DNA from: Pirellulaceae bacterium
GTDB taxonomy: Bacteria > Planctomycetota > Planctomycetia > Pirellulales > Pirellulaceae
Assembly: GCA_022448315.1 (NCBI GenBank)
Contig: JAKVCA010000015.1
Coordinates: forward strand, 180,837 to 244,836
Direction of reading: 5' to 3'
Length of the DNA: 64,000 nucleotides
The position numbers and the translations under genes were made by a program. The notes below the pieces were generated by a model. It did not search any database. It was given only the letters and a program-made list of their open reading frames with translations, and was not told the origin of the DNA. Every line of letters begins with the position of its first letter. The first letter of the stretch is position 1. This document shows positions 29,206 to 41,070 of the stretch, piece by piece.

Positions 29206-29545
29206 ACCGTCCGGGATCCTTATTTTGTTATGGATTTCCCCCTTGCTAGGGGTGGTTGGGTCGCACTTTCTGGAAAGCGTTCGGAAACTGCACAAAGTTT
29301 CAAAAAAGACCGGTAAAATGTATCGCTTTGTAATAAAAATGCCACAACTTTCGACGATTCGTGTGGTTAAAAGTGCGGTTGCGACCGTTGCCAAGGTGTA
29401 ATCGCTACAAGGCGGGACGTTCCGACTGAATAGCGCGTTGTCGATTAATTGGATGAGCTTCATCGCTTGCTCACGGTCGAAGGCTTCGCGGGCTAGGTAA
29501 AAAAGATAACGATTGTTTGATTCGATACAGCAAAGGTTGATGGAA
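29206..29545. other. Intergenic region upstream of the Gly-rich protein
   Basis: This 340-base gap holds no convincing gene. It is AT-richer than its surroundings between about 29300 and 29350, which would fit a promoter for the downstream plus-strand gene, but I cannot fix -35 and -10 boxes. Confidence 0.4.
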
Positions 29546-30385
29546 ATGAAACGATTTGCATTTGTTGCGACATTCGCGATGGCACTGTGCTTGCTCGCTC
29601 AGGCGACCAGCATGGCACAACCCGGTGGTCGCGGTGGCGCCGGTGGACGAGGTGGATTTGGCGGTTTCGGCGGAGGTGGTCAACGTGGTGGCGGCCTCAC
29701 TCAGCTTGTGATGAATGAAGCGATTCAGAAAGAGATCGAGCTGGAAGACTTCCAACTCGAGGGCATTGAACTGGCAATGGAGGAGCTGGAACGGCCTCAG
29801 TTGGACTTCCGGGGACTGCGAGAACTGGATGAAGACGAGCGTCGAGAGAAGATGACCGAGTTCCGAGAGACGATGACAGAGTTTTCGAAGAAACAAGAGG
29901 AAGCGATTGCCGATGTTCTTTCCGAAGACCAGATCAAGAGGGTTCGGGAGATCGAGGTTCAGATTGCTGGCGTTCGCGCCGTTCAAATTCCCCGAGTCGA
30001 AGAGGAACTGGACCTGACCAAGACACAGAAGGAAAAGGTTCAGGAAGTATTTGAAGATATGCAATCTGAAATGAGAGAGATGTTCGGCAATTTTCGTGGT
30101 GGACAACGAGGCGGTGGACAAGGAGGCGGCCGACCGAACTTCGAGGAGATGCGGGAGAAAATGACCGAACTCAACGAAGGGCTCGAAGAAAAGGTCATGG
30201 ATGTCTTGTCCTCCAAGCAACGCAGTAAGTTGAAGAAGCTCAAAGGCGACGAGTTCGATGTTGAGCAGCTACGTGGAGGTCGCGGCGGCCGCGGCGGTCG
30301 TGGTGGCGAGGGTGAACGCGGAGGTCGCGGTGGCCAAGGAGAACGCGGTGGTCGAGGTGGCGATGACGGCGGAGAGGATTTTTAA
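29546..30385 (+). CDS. Exported Gly/Arg-rich helical protein
   Basis: The 279-residue product has a signal peptide (cut probably after SMA near residue 24), a Gly/Arg-rich stretch (26-50), a long helical core (about 50-245) and a second Gly/Arg-rich tail of about 40 residues. The core is charged and amphipathic with repeats such as LSEDQIKRVREIEVQ and LSSKQRSKLKKLKG, recalling Spy/CpxP-type LTxxQ motifs of periplasmic chaperones or metal sensors. I infer a periplasmic helical protein; the function is open. AAAGG lies nine bases before the ATG used; another ATG is six bases upstream. A strong terminator follows. Confidence 0.8.
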   Translation: MKRFAFVATFAMALCLLAQATSMAQPGGRGGAGGRGGFGGFGGGGQRGGGLTQLVMNEAIQKEIELEDFQLEGIELAMEELERPQLDFRGLRELDEDERREKMTEFRETMTEFSKKQEEAIADVLSEDQIKRVREIEVQIAGVRAVQIPRVEEELDLTKTQKEKVQEVFEDMQSEMREMFGNFRGGQRGGGQGGGRPNFEEMREKMTELNEGLEEKVMDVLSSKQRSKLKKLKGDEFDVEQLRGGRGGRGGRGGEGERGGRGGQGERGGRGGDDGGEDF

Positions 30386-30537: not shown

Positions 30538-31203
30538 TCAGAAACGCCACCTCCTGGGCCCGCTGACATAGGGGTTGCCTTTGATCAGATAACGCAGCAT
30601 GAGATCTTGACCTGATGTGACGCCAATCCGCTCCGAAATTCGGAGTGGCAAGTCTCCTGCCGTCAGATCAGATTCTTGAATCCAAAGCCTTTGTGCGGAG
30701 GTGAGGTCATGACCATCCCACTCGCGCGTCACATTCATTGCTTCGCATAATCGTCCGGGGCCTGTTGTCAATTCTCGCTTTCCCGAACGACCCCTGCGTC
30801 TGGTGGTCATCAGGTCAATGCCGCACCTTGGCTCAAGAGCTCGAATCAGTACGGCGCTGCCGAGACCCTCTTCGTCAGTCACGACATTTAAACAGGAACT
30901 TCCATGGATCACATAGACATAAGCGCGACCCGCAGGGCCAAACATGGATTTGTTTTTTCGATTGAGTCCGACCGCGGCATGGCAGGCGGGGTCATGGGCA
31001 GCAAGATAGGCTTCCGTCTCAACAATTAATCCCCCGGTGAGCCGCTCGCCTTCCTCTCGAAGCAACCACTTGCCCAGCAGTGCGGGGGCAACGTCTCGAG
31101 GATCACGTGCAAAGAATCCAACGGGGATCCCAACGCTCTCCATAGGGATCGTACAGGTCCGGGGCAATGATTCCGAGCATGGAGTGGAGGCTGATTTACC
31201 CAT
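30538..31203 (-). CDS. mpg: 3-methyladenine DNA glycosylase (AAG/MPG family)
   Basis: The 221-residue protein matches the AAG/MPG family that removes alkylated purines in base excision repair. VETEAYLAAHDPACHA contains the catalytic Glu of the VETEAY motif, and YVYVIHG and PGRLCEAMN are the other signature segments. The length is usual for bacterial members. The start is uncertain among several nearby ATGs; the one at 31203 is preceded by GGAG that belongs to the end of the upstream gene, with an 8-base overlap, which suggests translational coupling to the PHP phosphatase gene. Confidence 0.93.
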   Translation of the reverse strand: MGKSASTPCSESLPRTCTIPMESVGIPVGFFARDPRDVAPALLGKWLLREEGERLTGGLIVETEAYLAAHDPACHAAVGLNRKNKSMFGPAGRAYVYVIHGSSCLNVVTDEEGLGSAVLIRALEPRCGIDLMTTRRRGRSGKRELTTGPGRLCEAMNVTREWDGHDLTSAQRLWIQESDLTAGDLPLRISERIGVTSGQDLMLRYLIKGNPYVSGPRRWRF

Positions 31204-31933
31204 CATGCTCCGGTTCACCGCCCATCAAGATCTTCCTGGGCCGATCCCACAGAAGTGTTTTGAGTGATTCTTGAGTCAGATTCTGCTTGAGTTCGTCAAA
31301 ACCCTGCCATCTTGAGTCAAGGCTTGTGGGGCCATGTGAGTCACTCGCAAGGATGTAGTAAACGCCACGATCCAGCAGTTGTCCGGCTCGAGCTTTGACC
31401 TCGGGTCGCGAATCGTCGGCAAAGCTTTTGAAATTGCCCTGAAGCAGGATACCGCGGCCGAGAAGTTCAGTAATTTTGGCTTCCCACTCCGAGTCACCCA
31501 GAAGCATGCGTTCAGGATGAGCAAGAATCGGGACGTAGTTTTGTGCGAGCAGCCAGTCGAGGCTTCTGTCCAGAAAAGCATGCCATTGTCGCTCCCATGT
31601 ATCAAATAACACGAAGCGACTCTCACCCAGCACCGGGACCGTGAATTCCTTCCACCACTCAATCGAATCTTTGACCAATCGGAATTCGCCTCCCCCGTAG
31701 ATTTCAATCTCAATCCCGGAGTCCAGAACCGATTGCTTGAGTGCCGCGACCCGTAAATCGAGATTTCGTGGAGTGTTCTGCCGATAACGCGGGAGCCCCA
31801 TATGAGGCGTGCACGCAACGGCTTGGCAGCCAGCATTCGAAAGTGCCTGAAGGCACGCAAGGCTCTCAGACAAGTCAACACAGCCGTCGTCTACACCCGG
31901 GAGTAGATGAGAATGGAGATCGTAATACTTCAA
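31196..31933 (-). CDS. CpsB/CapC-type PHP-domain phosphatase
   Basis: The 245-residue protein has the PHP metal site: DLHSHLLPGVDDG at residues 5-17, CTPHMG near 41, AHPER near 138 and ASDSHG near 194. This matches the CpsB/YwqE tyrosine-phosphatase family, which dephosphorylates the tyrosine kinases that steer export of surface polysaccharides. No such kinase gene is in the window. Other PHP enzymes share parts of the site, but the LLPGVDDG phrase is typical for CpsB. It overlaps the glycosylase gene downstream. Confidence 0.88.
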   Translation of the reverse strand: MKYYDLHSHLLPGVDDGCVDLSESLACLQALSNAGCQAVACTPHMGLPRYRQNTPRNLDLRVAALKQSVLDSGIEIEIYGGGEFRLVKDSIEWWKEFTVPVLGESRFVLFDTWERQWHAFLDRSLDWLLAQNYVPILAHPERMLLGDSEWEAKITELLGRGILLQGNFKSFADDSRPEVKARAGQLLDRGVYYILASDSHGPTSLDSRWQGFDELKQNLTQESLKTLLWDRPRKILMGGEPEHDG

Positions 31934-32001: not shown

Positions 32002-33855
32002 TCAGAACTTGCGAAGCTCGCGTTTGTTTTCCAGTCGCTCCTCTTGCTTCAGGTCCAGATCAACAAGGCGCCAGTCGCCTTCCGATGGGCGAACTTTAAA
32101 TATTCCGAGATACTGGTTTTTCCGGCGGTGAATATGCCCCCAGTGCTCAATCGTTCCAGAAACGTTCCAACGACACTCCACGAGGTAAGCAGGAGGGCTC
32201 GCCTCGTGCTCCATGAAGTCCAACGCGGGAGTGACATCAAGAAACTCAATGTCATCCACCAGAGCGACTGCCCCGCCCTGCTCTTGGACCTCAAGGCCAT
32301 TGCGGATTTCCAAATAGACGTCGCTTAAAAGCTCGCCCGTCACACTTTGCGCCAGACAATCATAGACCTCTTCATTGTCACGATAATCAAAGGCGCGATA
32401 GACGTTGGAGAGCAGTGTCTTGAAAACATTCTCTTGTTGGCTTTCAGAAATCGAAGGAGGCTTGTCCCATGGAATGGGTAACCAAAGATTGGGCGAGAAA
32501 CAGATGACCATGGCTGGAAGCAGTGCGGCTATGCCTGAACCCAACGCCATGGATCGACGTGCACGACACGCCGGAATGAAGGCCAGCATTCCCAACCACC
32601 CGAGAATGATGATTGCCGCGAGCCAAGGATAAAACTTTTGGGGGGGAAGGTCAGCAGCGATCGGTCCAAGATCCTGTTGGTCTTTCTGCTCTGGATTGAG
32701 CCAGGCGAAGGTGTTTTCCTCCTTGAATCGAGAAAATTCGAATTTGCTACTTTCTCCAGGTGTGAAAACCACCGTCTCGACCTTGCGAATGTCACTGGTG
32801 AATTTGGTCCACGTCAATTCCACGCGGTTTGGTTCCCCTTTGCAGGGGTAGGCCAGGATGATCCCTACTCGCCCGCTTGCCATGCTCACATCACGGGGTT
32901 CTGCTCGCTGCGCAAAGTCCTTGAGGCTGAGGCCGTAGAAATCGATTCGGTCGGCAATGGGAGCCACATCGATCCCATCAATTTTGATCGGATTGCCTTC
33001 TGCGTAGTATTGCTCAATCAGAGCTCGCGCCGTTTCCTGTTCCGCGATTGTCAAGAAGTCCGGGTCGGCCCGGGGGATCTCGAAAATTCTCGCGAGTGTG
33101 CCAAGTGGGATCAGAATCTCGTGCCGCACCTCGCGTCGCGTGATGTACAGGAATGAATAGACACTGTCGTAACTGGTGATGCCCAGTGTGGCTTCACGAT
33201 CCCGGTTCAGCCATTTTTCGATTTCTTCTTCGGATGCTTCCAGTCCGGGCTGCCCCGCGCTCCAGTCGAATCGAACCGTATAAGGGTCACCGGGTCTCAG
33301 GATGGATGTGGACAGGTTGGCTTGGCCTTCCTGCCGAACCACAAGTCGTAGCTCGGACCGGAAAACAAAGTTGGCGTCGACGATATCCTGAACAATGGTC
33401 AGGTATTCGGGTGCCTCACTCAAATCGAATTCCAGATCGTAGTCGATTGTGTGGTCCATCAACTTATCGACACTCCAGCCCTTCTCGTCTATCCCGAGAG
33501 CTGAAACTTCAACCACCCGCGAGGGCAACGGTTGTCCATCCGCATTCAGGATTTTTACTCGATCAAGAAGAAATTGCTTGTGCGCCATTCGAGCGGGTTC
33601 AAGATCGGCGGAATAGAGGCGATCCTCGTCGTCGGGCTCCATTTCATGGAATAGATAAAGGTCTTCGACGAAAATGGTGAGCCTGGCCGAGACGCGACTT
33701 TTGGAAACGTAAAACGTTCCGGTGACTTGAGAAAAGGGATGAACTTCGCGGCAGGTGGCGGTTCCGTGGAGCAAGACTCCATAGAGGAGGGTGAAATATA
33801 ATGAAGTCAAAAGCCACGTTTTTTTGGGTTGGGGCATCATCGTTGCCTTGTTCAT
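32002..33855 (-). CDS. Large exported membrane protein of unknown function
   Basis: The 617-residue product has a signal segment (about 14-33), a long periplasmic region of about 400 residues rich in beta strands, two hydrophobic helices near 432-455 and 460-480, and a C-terminal domain of about 130 residues. The C-terminal part contains VYRAFDYRDNEEVYDCLAQSV, a helical pattern. I have seen no named domain. The order suggests an envelope protein with a soluble domain on each side of the membrane. It stands alone, with a terminator-like hairpin of the pseudogene upstream of it. Confidence 0.75.
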   Translation of the reverse strand: MNKATMMPQPKKTWLLTSLYFTLLYGVLLHGTATCREVHPFSQVTGTFYVSKSRVSARLTIFVEDLYLFHEMEPDDEDRLYSADLEPARMAHKQFLLDRVKILNADGQPLPSRVVEVSALGIDEKGWSVDKLMDHTIDYDLEFDLSEAPEYLTIVQDIVDANFVFRSELRLVVRQEGQANLSTSILRPGDPYTVRFDWSAGQPGLEASEEEIEKWLNRDREATLGITSYDSVYSFLYITRREVRHEILIPLGTLARIFEIPRADPDFLTIAEQETARALIEQYYAEGNPIKIDGIDVAPIADRIDFYGLSLKDFAQRAEPRDVSMASGRVGIILAYPCKGEPNRVELTWTKFTSDIRKVETVVFTPGESSKFEFSRFKEENTFAWLNPEQKDQQDLGPIAADLPPQKFYPWLAAIIILGWLGMLAFIPACRARRSMALGSGIAALLPAMVICFSPNLWLPIPWDKPPSISESQQENVFKTLLSNVYRAFDYRDNEEVYDCLAQSVTGELLSDVYLEIRNGLEVQEQGGAVALVDDIEFLDVTPALDFMEHEASPPAYLVECRWNVSGTIEHWGHIHRRKNQYLGIFKVRPSEGDWRLVDLDLKQEERLENKRELRKF

Positions 33856-33934
33856 AGCCTTGGAGACTGAGAAGATCGCAATTACCTATTATTGTGGGCT
33901 TTGTTCAGTAAAAAAAGGCGTTGGAACCCGACAC

Positions 33935-33962
33935 AAAAAAGCCCTGACCTTATCGATCAGGG
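33935..33962 (-). terminator. Terminator at the end of the sugar-transport operon remnant
   Basis: Read on the minus strand, CCCTGA pairs with TCAGGG around a nine-base loop and is followed by C and six T. It overlaps the stop of the pseudogene and would end the transcript of the transporter operon. Confidence 0.8.
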
Positions 33963-34207
33963 TGCCTGTGCCGCTGCAAGGTTGCGAATGAACGAGAATG
34001 GGTCCGCGAGGCGTTGCTTCAAATCCCGGATCCTGATGTTTTTCCGACGACACAGCCATCTTCAACGCGATAGGTTGCAGTCCCATTCTTTTGCGTTCAT
34101 CCGTCCAGTGTTTTGCCGTCAAAGAGGCTTTGGAACCCGTCATCTGCCTGAGCGAATGTGTGTCCAAAAGTTATCAGAATGGGAGTCAAAACGAGGGAGC
34201 GTAGCAT
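33957..34207 (-). pseudogene. Broken DUF1080 (3-keto-disaccharide hydrolase-like) gene
   Basis: From an ATG at 34207, with GGAG eight bases upstream, the frame gives a signal peptide (MLRSLVLTPILITFGHTFAQ) and then FQSLFDGKTLDG, the start of a DUF1080 domain. The next codon, where the family has Trp (TGG), is TGA at 34097-34099. The same frame continues for 25 codons with NGTATYRVEDGCVVGK, again typical for DUF1080, before another TGA. A different frame then gives KQRLADPFSFIRNLAAAQAP and a stop inside the terminator. The remnant is 250 bases against about 600 or more expected, so a large part is deleted. It follows the sugar ABC transporter genes on the same strand, and a hydrolase for the imported sugar or its precursor would fit. 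Confidence 0.75.
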
Positions 34208-34278
34208 GGAAAGTCTCCGGGGGAGCGTGTGGTGAGTCCGAGATTCTCAGGCGAAAGCGCGGGTTGGGTCATCAGGGA

Positions 34279-35271
34279 TTATGAATCCGCTTCGCGTCGT
34301 CGTCTCAATCGCGTGACGGCCCGTTTTGCAACTTCATCAACGACTGCGCCAATCAGAAGCACGATGCCGACCAGTGCGAATTCAAGGTCATCGGAGATGC
34401 CAAGGAAGTTGGATGCTTTGAAAAGAAGGCGAAGCACGGCGGTGCCAAGCAGAACACCCACAATGAGGCCCTCTCCCCCCGTGAGCGCGAAGCCACCGAG
34501 GACCGCTGCCGCGATGGCATAGAGTTCATAAAAATTACCAAAACTTGCCGCCTGAACCGAGTTGGCATCAATGGCCAACAGGACACCACCGATGCTGGCA
34601 AGTGTGGAGCATAAAATGTAGGCGAGTATTTTCATTCGATCGGTACGAATGCCGCTGTACTGTGCGGCTTGTTCGTTGCGCCCGATGGCTTGAAGGTATC
34701 GGCCATAGATCGTGCCGTGCAGGAAAAGCGAGAAAACGGCGGTCAGAGCCAGCAGAATGAGAAATGAGGAGGGGATGTCGTAGGATTTGCCAAAAATTGG
34801 AATGGGAAATGGGATTTCGGTCGAGATGATTTTTGTCAAACCTTCGAGGTGTTCACCAAACCCCAAGGATCTTGTTCCCGCAATCCAACGTCCGGCTCCA
34901 CGGTAGATTAAAAGGCCACAGAGCGTGACCACGAACGGTTGAAGTTTGAGCTTGGTGATCAGAAGCCCGTGAGCGAGCCCGAGAAACGAACACAGGGCGA
35001 TTGCCAGTAGAATCGCCGACCCGGGTGAAAAATCTTTTTCCTGCAGGAGAAAAGTCACTAGGGTTCCTGTGAGCCCAACAATCGATCCAATGGAAAGGTC
35101 GATGCCTCCGGTCATGATGACCAACGCCGCACCAATGCCAAGGATTCCAAACAGGCCAATTTTGACCTGCAGGGTTTCCATACTGTACGGTTCGATAAAC
35201 TTGGGGTTCTGAAGTGCCGTGATGACGAACACCAGCAGAAATAGACTCAATATACCGAGCAGCTTTTTCAT
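34279..35271 (-). CDS. Sugar ABC transporter permease (RbsC type)
   Basis: The 330-residue protein is a membrane protein of eight or more helices from the RbsC/XylH family. The conserved GGIDLSIGS segment at about residue 56 and the cytoplasmic AIGRNEQAAQYSGI loop near 195, which touches the ATPase, are clear. It forms the membrane channel of a monosaccharide importer with the ATPase encoded just before it; the start ATG overlaps the stop of that gene by four bases (ATGA). The sugar cannot be read from the sequence. The short C-terminal tail is Arg-rich. Confidence 0.95.
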   Translation of the reverse strand: MKKLLGILSLFLLVFVITALQNPKFIEPYSMETLQVKIGLFGILGIGAALVIMTGGIDLSIGSIVGLTGTLVTFLLQEKDFSPGSAILLAIALCSFLGLAHGLLITKLKLQPFVVTLCGLLIYRGAGRWIAGTRSLGFGEHLEGLTKIISTEIPFPIPIFGKSYDIPSSFLILLALTAVFSLFLHGTIYGRYLQAIGRNEQAAQYSGIRTDRMKILAYILCSTLASIGGVLLAIDANSVQAASFGNFYELYAIAAAVLGGFALTGGEGLIVGVLLGTAVLRLLFKASNFLGISDDLEFALVGIVLLIGAVVDEVAKRAVTRLRRRREADS

Positions 35272-36803
35272 GAAACCGCAGACTCACTGGACAAAGTTGA
35301 GGACTCACTGAGAGACTGGCCAGTTGCCAGTCGCATGACCGATTCTTCGGACAATTCGTTCTTCGATAGCTCCCCTAGGATCGCGCCTTCGTGCATCACC
35401 AAGACACGATCGGACACTCCGAGTATTTCTTCCATTTCGCTGCTGACGAACAGGACCGCCATCCCTTCCTTGGCCGAACGATCCATCAGTTGGTAAATTT
35501 CTTCTTTTGCACCGATGTCGATGCCGCGGGTTGGTTCATCAAGCAGAAGAACTTTCGGGCCCAGTTCAAGCCATTTTCCGAGGACGACCTTTTGCTGATT
35601 GCCACCGGAGAGGAACTCCAGCATCTGGTGTCGTGAGGGGGTTTTAACATTGAGTTCCTGAATCACATTTTCGGCCGTGGATTTCTCTTCGTGAAAGTTG
35701 ATGAAGCATCTTCCTTTGACTTTCTGGTCCAAGCCCGGAAGTGAGCTGTTGAAATCCACGGGCCAAGTGAGAACGATGCCTTCGGCCTTGCGATCCTCTG
35801 GCACGAGCGCCAAGCCAGCCTCAATCGCCTGTTTGGGGTGAGTGAAAGAGGTGATTTTGCCAGCAACTTCGACCGATCCGGCAACCTTTGGGTCGATGCC
35901 AAACAAAACGCGAAGCATTTCAGTGCGTCCTGCCCCTACAAGGCCTGCGATACCAACAATCTCGCCTTTGCGGATCGAAAACGAGACTTTTTCCGATGGA
36001 AACGCTCGGGTGGTCAGCTCTGTGACTTTCAGGACCGTATCGCCTGGTGAGTGGGACTGTCTCGAAAAGTGGCTCGAAATATCGCGGCCCACCATCAGTT
36101 CGACCATGCGTTCGTGTGTCACATCCTCTCGATTCAATTCACCCGAGTTTTCGCCATCACGAAAAACCATAACTCGGTCCGCAAGCTTTCTGACCTCACC
36201 GAGGCGATGAGAAATGTAAATGATGGCCACGCCCTGATTTTTCAGGTCCTCAACGACTTCGAACAGGCGTTCCGCTTCGCGACTCGAAAGGGATGAGGTC
36301 GGCTCGTCCATGATGATGACCCGAGCATTCATGGATAACGCTTTGGCGATTTCCACCAGCTGACGCTGACCAATGGAGAGGCGAGAAACGCTGACGTCGG
36401 GCGAAAAGTTCAAGCCAACTCGTTCGAGAACCGTTGCGGATTCCTGCCGTATTTTGGCCCGATCGATCCAGCCAAAGCGACGTGGCTCCCGCCCCAGAAA
36501 GATGTTCGCGCCAATATTGAGGTTGTCCGCGAGATTCAACTCTTGATGAATCAACGCAATTCCCAAGTTCATGGCATCCTGAACCGAACGGATGGACGTG
36601 GCATCGCCACGCCATCTGATTTCGCCTTCATCGGGTTGCTGGATTCCAGCAAGAATTTTCATCAACGTACTTTTGCCTGCCCCGTTTTCACCAATCAGCG
36701 CGAGGGCTTCGCCCTCCGCGACTGACAGAGAGACGTTTTTGAGCGCTACGACGCCGGGAAAGCGTTTCGTGACGGCGCGAGCTTCGAGCAGAGAAGACGT
36801 CAT
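35268..36803 (-). CDS. Sugar ABC transporter ATPase (RbsA/MglA type, two ABC domains)
   Basis: The 511-residue protein has two ABC domains, as in RbsA and MglA. The first half has Walker A GENGAGKST (about residue 38), the signature LSIGQRQLVEIAKAL and Walker B IIMDEPTSSL. The second half has a changed Walker A (GLVGAGRTE), signature LSGGNQQKVVLGKWL and Walker B LLLDEPTRGID. This asymmetry is normal for the family, where only one site hydrolyses ATP well. It powers import together with the permease (overlapping downstream) and the binding lipoprotein (26 bases upstream). Confidence 0.96.
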   Translation of the reverse strand: MTSSLLEARAVTKRFPGVVALKNVSLSVAEGEALALIGENGAGKSTLMKILAGIQQPDEGEIRWRGDATSIRSVQDAMNLGIALIHQELNLADNLNIGANIFLGREPRRFGWIDRAKIRQESATVLERVGLNFSPDVSVSRLSIGQRQLVEIAKALSMNARVIIMDEPTSSLSSREAERLFEVVEDLKNQGVAIIYISHRLGEVRKLADRVMVFRDGENSGELNREDVTHERMVELMVGRDISSHFSRQSHSPGDTVLKVTELTTRAFPSEKVSFSIRKGEIVGIAGLVGAGRTEMLRVLFGIDPKVAGSVEVAGKITSFTHPKQAIEAGLALVPEDRKAEGIVLTWPVDFNSSLPGLDQKVKGRCFINFHEEKSTAENVIQELNVKTPSRHQMLEFLSGGNQQKVVLGKWLELGPKVLLLDEPTRGIDIGAKEEIYQLMDRSAKEGMAVLFVSSEMEEILGVSDRVLVMHEGAILGELSKNELSEESVMRLATGQSLSESSTLSSESAVS

Positions 36804-36829: not shown

Positions 36830-37876
36830 CTATTGAGGAGGTTCTTCGCCGAGTTTCTGATTCAGGTCTGTCCAGAACTCCATCACATTTTCGCTCCGAA
36901 TCTGTCGAGCTGGGATATAGACGACAGGGTCTTCGGGAAGGTCTCCCGTGTTGCCGCTGGCAAGCTTATACAGTACCTCTACGGACATTCGGCCGTACTC
37001 ATAGGGGTTTTGGACCACGGTGCCGTACATTTCACCATCTCGAATTGCTGATAATGTATCGGCGTCCTCATCAAAAGCCACAATTTGGACATCTTCCAGT
37101 CGTCCGGCATCTTTGGCCGCAGCAAGAAGGGCGGGCGGGTTATACGCAAAAAGCCCGACCATGCATTTCAACTCAGGGTACTGAACGAGCGCGTCTTGAG
37201 CTTGTTCTTTTGCTCGGACGGTATCAAAGCCGTCAGTTTTTGTTGCGACGATCGTGTACTTGTCACCCTTGATGACCCCATCTTGATCGTCGTAGTAATC
37301 CTCTTGTCGTTCCCGATCCAGAAGTTCATCGATCACGCCTTGTCGACGCAACTTCGCGTTCAACTGCTCGAGGCGACCGACCGTGATGAGAATCTCGCCT
37401 CCATCTGGAATGGCCTCTTTGATCAGTTGCCCGCAGAGGCGTCCAGCATCGTAGTTATCCATGCCCACGTAATAGCGACGGTTGGATTTTGGAGCGTCAG
37501 AGTCATGCGTGATCAACAGCGTATTTTCACCCAACTTGTTCAGGAAAGTGGTTTGGTTTTCTGGATCAATCGGGCTGACCGCAATGCCATCGATACCTTG
37601 GCTGAGCAAGTCTTCAAGGGTCTCCTTTTGATCCAACGCGCCATCCGGCATGCGCACTTCAACTTCGCAGGAAAACTCTTTGGCTCCGGCGTCCGCGCCA
37701 GCTTTCGCAACATCCCAAAATGAGGCGATTCCATTGGTGACGTAAGCCAGTTTGATGGATGTCTCTGTTTGGGCAGCGCCTGGATTCTCAGAATCGGAGG
37801 AGGATCCGCCACATCCAATAACGGCAATAAGAATTGCCAGGCCCAAAAGGTGCGTGAGCGGCTTGTTCGAAGACAT
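36830..37876 (-). CDS. Sugar-binding lipoprotein of the ABC transporter (RbsB-like)
   Basis: The 348-residue product has a lipoprotein signal with Cys in AVIGCGG at about residue 22 and a periplasmic-binding-protein type 1 fold: KLAYVTNGIASFWDVAKAG begins the first lobe, GIDGIAVSPIDPEN and LLITHDSDAP are conserved strands, and VVQNPYEYGRMS closes the second. Asn, Asp and Arg residues at these places usually bind a pentose or hexose. The ATG at 37876 is supported by GGAGG nine bases upstream; the frame reaches further upstream without a better start. It is the first gene of the transporter operon. Confidence 0.94.
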   Translation of the reverse strand: MSSNKPLTHLLGLAILIAVIGCGGSSSDSENPGAAQTETSIKLAYVTNGIASFWDVAKAGADAGAKEFSCEVEVRMPDGALDQKETLEDLLSQGIDGIAVSPIDPENQTTFLNKLGENTLLITHDSDAPKSNRRYYVGMDNYDAGRLCGQLIKEAIPDGGEILITVGRLEQLNAKLRRQGVIDELLDRERQEDYYDDQDGVIKGDKYTIVATKTDGFDTVRAKEQAQDALVQYPELKCMVGLFAYNPPALLAAAKDAGRLEDVQIVAFDEDADTLSAIRDGEMYGTVVQNPYEYGRMSVEVLYKLASGNTGDLPEDPVVYIPARQIRSENVMEFWTDLNQKLGEEPPQ

Positions 37877-38509
37877 TCGAGGGAACCTCCAAGTGCGAGC
37901 AATGTTTGGATTTTGGGCCATTAAGGCCTGAGTATGGGGACCATTACGACGAGGGACCAATTCGACATGCAGTCCTGCACCTAGGTGACCTTGCTGTGAG
38001 CAGAGGACAGCGCATGGTACGAGCAACAAAAGCCTCGAGAACCGTCGCGAAATCGATCGTCGTTCATGGTTTCGGGTGGCACGAAACCGCTTTCCGAAAC
38101 TCGATCATGCGAACTTCGAAACGGGCAAACTTCCTCGACTTCAGGCGCGAATGTGCCAAGACGTCGACAACGCTTGTTCGGGCGATGGCCAACTCCAGTA
38201 ACCGGCGGCCATTTTAGTTTTACCCCAATCGCTCAACAAGTGTTTCCTGCCCTGAACTACGGTGAATCACCAAGTTCTAGAGGTTGGCCGCCAGTCTTGG
38301 TCCCTCCATTCTTGTGCCGTATGGTGCTGGGAGCATCGGCGATTGGATGGGATTAAAGAGGATGTTGATGGAAAAGTCGGCAAACTCGACTCAAGTTGCC
38401 AATTTGTTTGGCCGATGCTCGACGAGTGGGGAACAAGAGCAACATTCCCTCATGATGGTTATTGTGTTTGAGTCTGTGAGGTTGGTCGTGCTTGAGAAGG
38501 AGTTGGGAC
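37877..38509. other. Large divergent intergenic region
   Basis: This 633-base gap separates the transporter operon from the kinase gene. It should hold promoters for both. I see no clear -35/-10 pair, no strong hairpin and no convincing ORF. Frames at 38284-38619 that run into the kinase gene look like chance. Confidence 0.4.
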
Positions 38510-39439
38510 GTGGCAGACGCGATTGTGCGAAAGCAATTGGGCGAATGGCAACTCCAACGCTGTCTTGGCCATTCTCACTGCTCCGAAGTCTATCTCGCGA
38601 CCCATCGGTCCGAGTTTGACGGGACGTCCCAATCCTATGTGGTAAAAGTGGCCACCTCGCATGCCTCGAAGTGGTCCCGATTGACGCTGCGTCAGGAGAG
38701 ACGCGTGCTTTCCAAGTTGGCTCACCCCAACATTGTCAGCTTGCTCGGCTCGGGTACCGAGAGAGGGGTCGACTTTCTGGTGTTGCCCTATCTCGACGGG
38801 GTCTTGGCTCCGGGAGGCTCGCAACCCCGGATCGCACCCGCTCAGTATGGTCGGCTCGCATGGATCACACGCCAGATGGTCTCGGGTCTACGTGCCATTC
38901 ACGAAGAGGGATGGTGCCATGGGGATTTAAAACCGGATCATCTTTCGATTGATCGTCATTTCCATGTCACACTGCTTGATTTTGGGATGGCACTTCCCCT
39001 ATTTCAGCGGACCTCGGACATGTTTTCAGATTGGATTGAATCGGAGGCCGTGGACGATGCGAAATGCAGCGATGTTCCGGTGTGGGGTTCTCCGGTCTAC
39101 ATGCCTCCAGAGGCATTTCTGAAAAATGCTCTGATCGAACCCTCGCGAGATGTTTACTCTCTCGGTTGCATGCTCTACCTCTGGATAACCGGGCAGAGGC
39201 CTTTTTATGCCAAGTCACTTTCAGATTGGAAAAAATCGCATCTCAGTCAACGCCCGAAAGACCCTCAGGTTTGGGTTCCGGAACTGCCAGATCAAATCGC
39301 AAAAATCCTGATGGACATGTTGGCAAAACATCCTTCTCGCCGTCCTGGGCTATCCGAGATTGAGGAGGCATTTGCAAGGCTGGAGGTCGAGAGTTTCGGC
39401 GACTGGTTGCCTGCTGAGACTGTAGGGAGAGTGGCCTGA
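38510..39439 (+). CDS. Small Ser/Thr protein kinase, soluble
   Basis: The 309-residue protein is almost only a kinase domain with no membrane segment or sensor domain. Lys near residue 45 (VVKVA), catalytic Asp139 in HGDLKPDH, the metal-binding LLDFG near 156, MPPEA (APE) and DVYSLGCMLY are visible. The Gly-rich loop is poor (LGHSHCSEVYLA instead of GxGxxG), the residue before the catalytic Asp is Gly instead of Arg, and His replaces the usual Asn after KPD. It may still be active, but it is unusual. The GTG start is supported by AAGGAG seven bases upstream. It ends three bases from the stop of the convergent Fur gene. Confidence 0.88.
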   Translation: MADAIVRKQLGEWQLQRCLGHSHCSEVYLATHRSEFDGTSQSYVVKVATSHASKWSRLTLRQERRVLSKLAHPNIVSLLGSGTERGVDFLVLPYLDGVLAPGGSQPRIAPAQYGRLAWITRQMVSGLRAIHEEGWCHGDLKPDHLSIDRHFHVTLLDFGMALPLFQRTSDMFSDWIESEAVDDAKCSDVPVWGSPVYMPPEAFLKNALIEPSRDVYSLGCMLYLWITGQRPFYAKSLSDWKKSHLSQRPKDPQVWVPELPDQIAKILMDMLAKHPSRRPGLSEIEEAFARLEVESFGDWLPAETVGRVA

Positions 39440-39442
39440 CCG

Positions 39443-39970
39443 TCAGATCATGTCTTGGCGGCGTTTTGTGCGCCGAGAAGCTTCTCTGCCCTCTTTACTG
39501 GCCCCGTAAATGATCAGCCGGTGACTTGCGATTTGAAAGTCGTACTGCTGTGCAATCTTCTCAATTAACTCAACAAGTTCACGGTTGTGAAATTCGATGA
39601 GCTTTCCTGACTTGTCGCAGTAGAAATGGTCGTGAGCAGGATAGCCATAGTCGTGTTCGTAGACCGAACGGCCGTCCAGTTCAAACCGTCTCAACAACCC
39701 CGCTTCGACAAATTCGTTGAGCGTGCGATAAACGGTAGGGCGACTCACGTGCCCAGCTTCTCCGCGCTTGGGGAGTTGTTCAATCAATTCGTCAACGTCG
39801 AAGTGTTGATGTCGCTCAAAAACATGCTGGAGCAATACTTTCCGCTGCTCCGTCATTCTCATGCCTCGGATTTGCAAAAATTCTTCGAATCTCTCCTGAG
39901 GCGTTGAGGAGACATGGACCGATCCGAGAGATTCGTCGCTAGGCTGGCTCACAGTGTTAGGCTTGCTCAC
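39443..39970 (-). CDS. Fur-family metal-responsive regulator
   Basis: The 175-residue protein has the Fur winged helix (RMTEQRKVLLQHVFER, VSRPTVYRTLNEFVEAGLLRR) and part of the metal site (HDHFYC with following IEFHN). The C-terminal structural zinc site is weak: only one Cys of the CxxC pair remains (CDKSG) and no second pair is seen. It could sense iron, zinc, manganese or peroxide; the neighbouring His-rich lipoprotein hints at zinc or another divalent metal. No start has a good ribosome site; I used GTG at 39970, while a TTG at 40006 or a GTG at 39952 also fit. The sequence around these codons is a short tandem duplication. Confidence 0.88.
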   Translation of the reverse strand: MSKPNTVSQPSDESLGSVHVSSTPQERFEEFLQIRGMRMTEQRKVLLQHVFERHQHFDVDELIEQLPKRGEAGHVSRPTVYRTLNEFVEAGLLRRFELDGRSVYEHDYGYPAHDHFYCDKSGKLIEFHNRELVELIEKIAQQYDFQIASHRLIIYGASKEGREASRRTKRRQDMI

Positions 39971-40038
39971 AGTAAAACAATCAAAAAAGGTCGAGCGGAT
40001 AAACAAATGGCCCCGCCATTGGCCACTACGATAAATGT

Positions 40039-40052
40039 AACATAAAAATGTT
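40039..40052. promoter_or_regulatory. Inverted repeat upstream of the Fur-family gene
   Basis: AACAT-AAAA-ATGTT is a perfect inverted repeat about 70 bases before the regulator's start. Its AT-rich dyad form fits a Fur/PerR/Zur-type operator and autoregulation, but it does not match the E. coli Fur box closely. Confidence 0.4.
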
Positions 40053-40111
40053 GGGGTGGACTCTGAATTGGTTTCGAAACTATCCCGGAAGCCAGGGATT
40101 TAAACGCCCAC

Positions 40112-40447
40112 TCAAGTTTCGACGGACTCCTCTTCGAGATCTCTGAGGTACTCAAACGTATAAATGCCCTTGTTACAGCCCTTTGAGAAAGAGATCGTGT
40201 ATGCGTAGTTTCCAACGGGCGTCATGCTCATCACCGAAACAGGTTCCGGCCGGACCGACCCCACAATCTTGAGTGGCGATTCGGTTGCCGTCGGCGTCTC
40301 CTTCTTTTCTCGACATGTCGCGCACGGGCACGCATCAAGTAACATTTTTGGGGGAAGCATTTGACTGTGGCCGTCTGACCACCTAATGAGAAGATGGCCT
40401 TCGGAAGTCCGTTCGAGTCCCTTGGGGACCGGCGTAAGATCAGACAT
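40112..40447 (-). CDS. DUF971 domain protein
   Basis: The 111-residue protein is a stand-alone DUF971 domain, the N-terminal zinc-binding module also found in gamma-butyrobetaine hydroxylases. LLIRWSDGHSQMLP and DACPCATCREK (CPCAxC zinc-ligand motif), VGNYAYTISFSKGCNKGIYTFEYLR match the family well. In bacteria the stand-alone protein is linked to Fe-S cluster handling. It lies between the Fur-family gene and the His-rich lipoprotein gene on the same strand, so a role in metal handling is likely. Confidence 0.92.
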   Translation of the reverse strand: MSDLTPVPKGLERTSEGHLLIRWSDGHSQMLPPKMLLDACPCATCREKKETPTATESPLKIVGSVRPEPVSVMSMTPVGNYAYTISFSKGCNKGIYTFEYLRDLEEESVET

Positions 40448-40581
40448 AAGGGCCCCTGATCAATTTAAGAAAACGGTGAGAACCAATAACAACGGCGGGC
40501 ATCAATCTCGCGCTGACTCCGACTTCACAATTCGCTTGGAATGACCATCGCCTGGAATGACCATTGTGTGTCCAGACAGCA

Positions 40582-41070
40582 CTAATGGTCGTGGTTGTGA
40601 GGTTCAATCTTCTTGGTGTACTGCGTCCCATCAATTTCGACGGATACATCGACACCCAAGCCTAAGGCGACGATCAGGGCTCCATCTCTGGTCTCGAATG
40701 CGGATGCTTTTCCTTCCTCATCCGGTGAAACGGCCGCCAGCGTGAACACTTGCGGCTCCTGACCCGCATTCGAAGTCAGCGAGAGGGACTCTGCAGCCAC
40801 GGCAACCGCCTCTTTCTGGCTCTCGTCGAGGATGACGATTTTTACAAGCTGAGCTGTATCGTCGTGGATCCATTCAAAAGTGTAGCCAGGTTGGTCAAAT
40901 GTTTCGGTGTGACCCCCGTTAGGGCCTGCTGGCCCATGGTCGTGCTCGTGATCGTGATCATGAGCGTCGGCTTCGCCCGTTGTATTTCCCGTGTCAGTTG
41001 AGGTTTGGCAACCTGCAAAAGCAAAGCAAAGGAGTGCTACTGAAACGATGCCGGTAAATACTCGACTCAT
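40582..41070 (-). CDS. His-rich lipoprotein, probable metal binder
   Basis: The 162-residue product has a lipoprotein signal with Cys at residue 21 (FAFAGCQ). The mature protein starts with a His/Asp stretch (AHDHDHEHDHG, about 36-46) and ends in HNHDH, both able to bind divalent metals such as zinc, nickel or copper. The middle is a small beta domain with no known name. It may store or hand over metal at the outer face of a membrane. The Fur-family regulator two genes downstream on the same strand makes metal control likely. Confidence 0.82.
   Translation of the reverse strand: MSRVFTGIVSVALLCFAFAGCQTSTDTGNTTGEADAHDHDHEHDHGPAGPNGGHTETFDQPGYTFEWIHDDTAQLVKIVILDESQKEAVAVAAESLSLTSNAGQEPQVFTLAAVSPDEEGKASAFETRDGALIVALGLGVDVSVEIDGTQYTKKIEPHNHDH

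Follow-up and report, generated by a model that had tools for sequence, protein, structure and literature searches.

Evidence for a degraded DUF1080 gene behind a sugar ABC importer operon in a Pirellulaceae genome

Introduction

Proteins of the family PF06439 (DUF1080, 3-keto-disaccharide hydrolase), which includes BT2157 and CCNA_01705, have been linked to the hydrolysis of 3-keto-glycosides, and a periplasmic site is proposed for CCNA_01705 in the portion of that report considered here (PMC9007349). The gene remnant described below and its intact homologue in another genus both match this family, and the signal-peptide-like start of the remnant fits the periplasmic site proposed in that portion of the report (PMC9007349). 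Unlike BT2157 and CCNA_01705, the remnant keeps only model positions 1-43 of 187, with a stop. DUF1080 is abundant in Planctomycetes, with many copies per genome, as stated for Thermogutta terrifontis in the excerpted text of PMC5673643; the genome analyzed here likewise has many copies, with 31 matches. The copies of T. terrifontis are tied to xanthan in the same excerpts (PMC5673643), and nothing in our sequence bears on xanthan. Literature searches pairing 'PF06439' with 'ABC transporter' and 'DUF1080' with 'pseudogene' returned only PMC9007349 and PMC5352709, respectively.

The stretch of DNA analyzed (hereafter the window) comprises 64,000 nucleotides of a draft assembly that totals 5.03 Mb over 126 contigs, and the remnant lies on a contig of 345 kb. 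It follows an operon for an importer that we take to be a CUT2 sugar ABC importer, Rbs-like. The assignment is based on a sugar-binding protein (SBP) matching Peripla_BP_4, an ATPase with two ABC_tran matches and a permease matching BPD_transp_2. As in other CUT2 importers, the SBP, the two-domain ATPase and the permease are encoded in one run. A DUF1080 neighbor is unusual for such importers and, among the loci tested, was found only in the window (as the remnant) and in two genomes of another genus, G017 and G235. The features of the locus are as follows.

30538..31218, minus strand: methylpurine-DNA glycosylase (MPG), shared flank
31196..31933, minus strand: CpsB/CapC-like gene, shared flank
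32002..33855, minus strand: 617-aa protein without a Pfam match; preceded by DUF1080-LolD-FtsX in the other genus
33942..33962, minus strand: terminator-like hairpin with a T run, after the remnant
34019..34021, minus strand: second in-frame TGA (codon 63), past the part with detectable homology
34034..34207, minus strand: remnant of a DUF1080/PF06439 gene, with start codon, signal-peptide-like stretch and the first 34 domain residues
34099-34097, minus strand: first TGA, at a conserved Trp (codon 37 of the remnant)
34279..35271, minus strand: importer permease (BPD_transp_2 by Pfam, RbsC-like)
35268..36803, minus strand: importer ATPase (two ABC_tran matches by Pfam, RbsA-like)
36830..38029, minus strand: SBP (Peripla_BP_4; best solved relative 5er3)
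38492..39439, plus strand: protein kinase, shared flank
39443..40006, minus strand: Fur-family regulator, shared flank

Results

A DUF1080 gene interrupted by stop codons

When the whole genome was searched with PF06439, the remnant was matched at 34025-34138 of the window (21.8 bits, E = 5e-4). Read on the minus strand from the ATG at 34207, which lies 71 bases behind the permease stop codon and has a GGAG 7 bases upstream, the frame translates as MLRSLVLTPILITFGHTFAQADDGFQSLFDGKTLDG up to the first TGA and as TQKNGTATYRVEDGCVVGKTSGSGI from there to the second. After the signal-peptide-like stretch, which was recognized by eye in the translation, it continues as FQSLFDGKTLDG, a stop, and TQKNGTATYRVEDGCVVGKTS. 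The first TGA replaces the near-invariant Trp of 'DGW', which is common to at least 28 of 30 intact relatives. The remnant does not behave as a functional member of the family, given that its score is below the curated PF06439 cut-off of 26.8 bits along the domain and that TGA codons 37 and 63 interrupt the frame. With the intact DUF1080 protein of G017 as the tblastn query, the remnant was matched at 53% identity over 62 residues (E = 5e-12). It is thus homologous to a gene, yet disabled, and we consider it very probable that the stretch is a degraded DUF1080 gene (pseudogene). Because of its short length and its stops, the remnant would be most unlikely to act as an enzyme.

The original prediction, made from the letters of the window, had described such a pseudogene, with an intact domain start, a conserved Trp turned into TGA, a second TGA and most of the domain missing. 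All of these points hold: the first 34 residues of the domain are present, both TGA codons are there, and 43 of 187 model positions remain, with no frame beyond them showing the rest.

Were TGA read through as Trp, or otherwise recoded, the stretch could encode a short functional secreted protein, and the good conservation of the remnant on both sides of the first TGA would fit this. We nevertheless regard recoding as exceedingly improbable, as TGA terminates 7 of the 11 neighboring genes checked, the remainder of the domain is missing, and just one of the 31 PF06439 matches of the genome, the remnant, has a stop inside, the other 30 being free of internal stops. A short form of the protein was also absent from the 137 permease loci and 19 longer regions tested, which, apart from the window's own locus, come from genomes of other genera; a conserved short form in relatives had been named beforehand as an observation that would speak against a pseudogene.

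The same locus in another genus

Comparison with relatives at the same locus, as had been proposed, identified the full gene. In G017, an intact 218-aa DUF1080 homologue (166.5 bits to PF06439) lies directly behind the permease. G235, from the genus of G017, has a DUF1080 copy there as well, but an N divides it into two frames, so that this copy is not callable as intact. The order in G017 is DUF971-Fur-kinase-SBP-ATPase-permease-DUF1080-LolD-FtsX-617aa-CpsB-MPG, and that of the window is the same minus LolD-FtsX, so that the order is common to both over ten genes. Identities between the window and the other genus are 55% over 56 residues for DUF971, 75% for Fur and 32% for the kinase on one side; 41% for the SBP, 58% for the ATPase and 46-50% for the permease within the importer; and 50-55% for the 617-aa protein, 45-50% for the CpsB-like protein and 54% for MPG on the other. 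A tree of 30 sequences places the 617-aa proteins from the window, G017 and G235 together in one clade (100/100). Based on the shared gene order and this clade, we conclude that the locus is homologous and that the DUF1080 gene of the window is the broken one, its counterpart having been retained there in G017 (intact) and in G235 (with the N).

An assembly or base-calling artefact, with a full gene in the real genome, has to be considered for a draft in 126 contigs, the more so as the draft of G235 has an N inside its own DUF1080 copy. Such an artefact would have to combine two kinds of lesion, a base change at the Trp and a missing stretch of about three quarters of the domain, and would have to do so on a 345-kb contig where 11 of 11 neighboring genes checked are open, with no internal stops; we therefore think it very unlikely. 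We give almost no credence to the idea that the real gene is one of two other frames, of 92 aa (33889-34167, same strand) or 130 aa (33892-34284, other strand), and that the DUF1080 likeness is incidental. Both frames are open, but Pfam gave no match for the 92-aa product, and the DUF1080 reading is backed by the tblastn E-value of 5e-12 and by synteny.

The extent of the loss

We favor a degraded gene with the following history. In the ancestor, a CUT2-type sugar ABC operon would have closed with a gene for a secreted DUF1080 protein, which was probably a periplasmic 3-keto-glycoside hydrolase; G017 still has this arrangement. In the lineage of the window, a Trp-to-stop change and the loss of roughly the last three quarters of the gene would have followed, in either order.

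A profile of 30 intact relatives scored -0.0 bits against the three frames of 34040-33900, a result equaled by 17-18 of 500 shuffles, of which 406 gave any score. Similarly, the best tblastn score of DUF1080, LolD and FtsX against 34040-33861 was 16.9 bits, the median of 200 shuffles being 16.5. With these null results, no exact position can be given for where the remnant ends or for the right edge of a deletion. The frame change that had been proposed to follow the second stop is not supported, since past 34034 the likeness of each frame to the rest of DUF1080 is no greater than that of shuffled DNA; judged on this comparison, the missing part is better called lost than frame-shifted.

A LolD-FtsX pair lies between DUF1080 and the 617-aa gene in G017 and G235 and is absent there in the window. 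The simplest reading of the break, we infer, is a single deletion from inside DUF1080 through LolD-FtsX, which would explain it; the pair may instead have been gained in the other genus rather than lost in the window. In other relatives, a LolD-FtsX-type pair follows the 617-aa gene (G087 and G106), an FtsX match immediately precedes it, the G017 arrangement (G012 and G092), or the two are on separate contigs (others, e.g. G139). A single LolD-FtsX pair is present in the window genome; it lies on contig C68 (L243 8254-10171), away from the 617-aa gene. This pair groups with that of G084 (100/99) and not with those of G017 and G235. A clade with the latter two was not rejected by the AU test (p = 0.095; the FtsX group was chosen once a first tree had been seen), and the C68 pair could still be the moved neighbor of the DUF1080 locus.

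DUF1080 is rarely found beside this importer

We compared 137 loci of permease homologues by tblastn, a set that includes the window's own locus, distant homologues and some genomes twice. DUF1080 was beside the permease only in G017 and in the window, where it is the remnant; G235 is a further case, found in addition to this test. Among 19 longer regions, of which 15 come from loci in the count above, DUF1080 accompanied the importer in G017 only. Conversely, at 30 loci of the closest DUF1080 relatives in the family, among the matches listed, the importer permease was adjacent only to the gene of G017. These loci are fewer than all 241 genomes searched: of the 84 permease matches in those genomes, the first 30 gave loci and some of the others were read separately, and most loci were compared with about 1.5 kb of flank, some contigs ending sooner. 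Within this sample, it is rare for DUF1080 to adjoin this importer.

When 396 genomes of the order were searched at the DNA level with the remnant, 53 had matches, its own included, and the matches outside its own genome were all shorter than 100 bases. Of 19 non-own loci from this search, 18 hold a stretch of a DUF1080 gene (tblastn); the importer or the 617-aa gene was in none of the 19. A plasmid search found nothing. In the window genome itself, 28 of the 31 PF06439 matches are over the cut-off, none of these with an internal stop, and with so many unbroken DUF1080 domain matches left the pseudogene matters little. One of the copies, on contig C90, is about 58-63% identical to the gene of G017 (among the matches listed).

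Different importers at one locus

The importer proteins of the two genera do not come out as sisters in the trees. For the SBPs of the window and G017, a sister relationship was rejected (AU test, p = 1.7e-6, 16 rows), as it was for the permeases of the window, G017 and G235 (p = 0.010, with a long branch and a group chosen once a first tree had been seen); for the ATPases the test was undecided (p = 0.37). Tree rows came from 15 of the 19 regions for the SBP and from 18 of 19 for the ATPase, and the G235 stretch was compared without SBP or ATPase. The permeases of G017 and G235 group with longer permeases carrying an insert, which the window permease does not have. A long insert is present near residue 80 in many permease relatives, whose open frames reach about 500 aa versus 330 in the window (e.g. 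L177 3177-4733 and L176 1-1533).

This pattern suggests that the importer was exchanged in one lineage, or that different copies of a former tandem pair were lost, and one lineage may thus have swapped its importer. As the importers do not come out as sisters, the former neighbor of the DUF1080 gene may have been a different importer. A tentative, rather doubtful scenario is that the importer was swapped in place for a distant relative in one genus and that DUF1080, the partner of the earlier importer, then decayed. If true, this would be a traceable loss of a partner after a transporter swap. Other importers of the G017 type, e.g. in G015, G142, G143, G040 and G198, with no DUF1080 in the stretches read, count against a simple partner story.

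That the loss deprived the importer of the enzyme making or using its sugar, as had been proposed, is a possible but weak claim, considering that DUF1080 is rare beside this importer, that 28 other unbroken DUF1080 matches are kept and that the importers are not sisters. Redundancy or a changed importer would explain the loss as well. The SBP, ATPase and permease genes of the window are still open. No sugar dehydrogenase was recognized by Pfam among the neighboring genes scanned. We regard the remnant as ordinary gene decay and the importer exchange as one side question worth a look: the locus is a small natural comparison, with the same flanks, a different importer type and an enzyme kept versus lost, and could help to find the partner substrate of a DUF1080 protein.

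Age of the loss

The 34-residue domain piece of the remnant fits the family at 0.68, and 30 intact members scored mutually gave 0.61-0.77. With 15 of the 16 near-invariant residues still in place, the loss appears fairly young. Under neutral change from the loss onwards, 15 of 16 would be compatible at the 5% level with no more than ~0.14 changes per site, a rough estimate that assumes neutral change at 16 codons chosen for conservation. As judged from the two loci, the loss is later than the split from the genus of G017. Most proteins shared between the window and G017 are 41-58% identical (Fur 75%, kinase 32%), and the data agree with a loss well after that split.

A fairly recent loss, as put forward in the original prediction, is thus in line with the little further decay and with a loss younger than the genus split. 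The prediction had dated it by an intact ribosome site and terminator. The GGAG and the hairpin do exist; neither dates the loss, and the hairpin is not assignable as the terminator of this gene, one such site having been found in 33700-34500 where shuffles give 1.2 by chance.

Further observations on the neighborhood

Many of the nearest 80 permease relatives are titled Planctomycetota or Verrucomicrobiota, and some relatives share an identical permease with planctomycete records (L011/L041, L161/L113 and L162/L117). Amid the titled hits is contig L095, titled as a Klebsiella pneumoniae MAG, with a permease 48% identical to that of the window; this title is probably wrong. A cluster of a His-rich lipoprotein, Fur and a DUF971-like protein (39443-41070) lies on one side of the importer and the 617-aa protein, which LolD-FtsX pairs adjoin in several relatives, on the other, and these surroundings may be a metal-related cluster. 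Further along, on the plus strand at 29513-30385, the window has a Gly- and Arg-rich open frame of 290 aa with GGRGG repeats.
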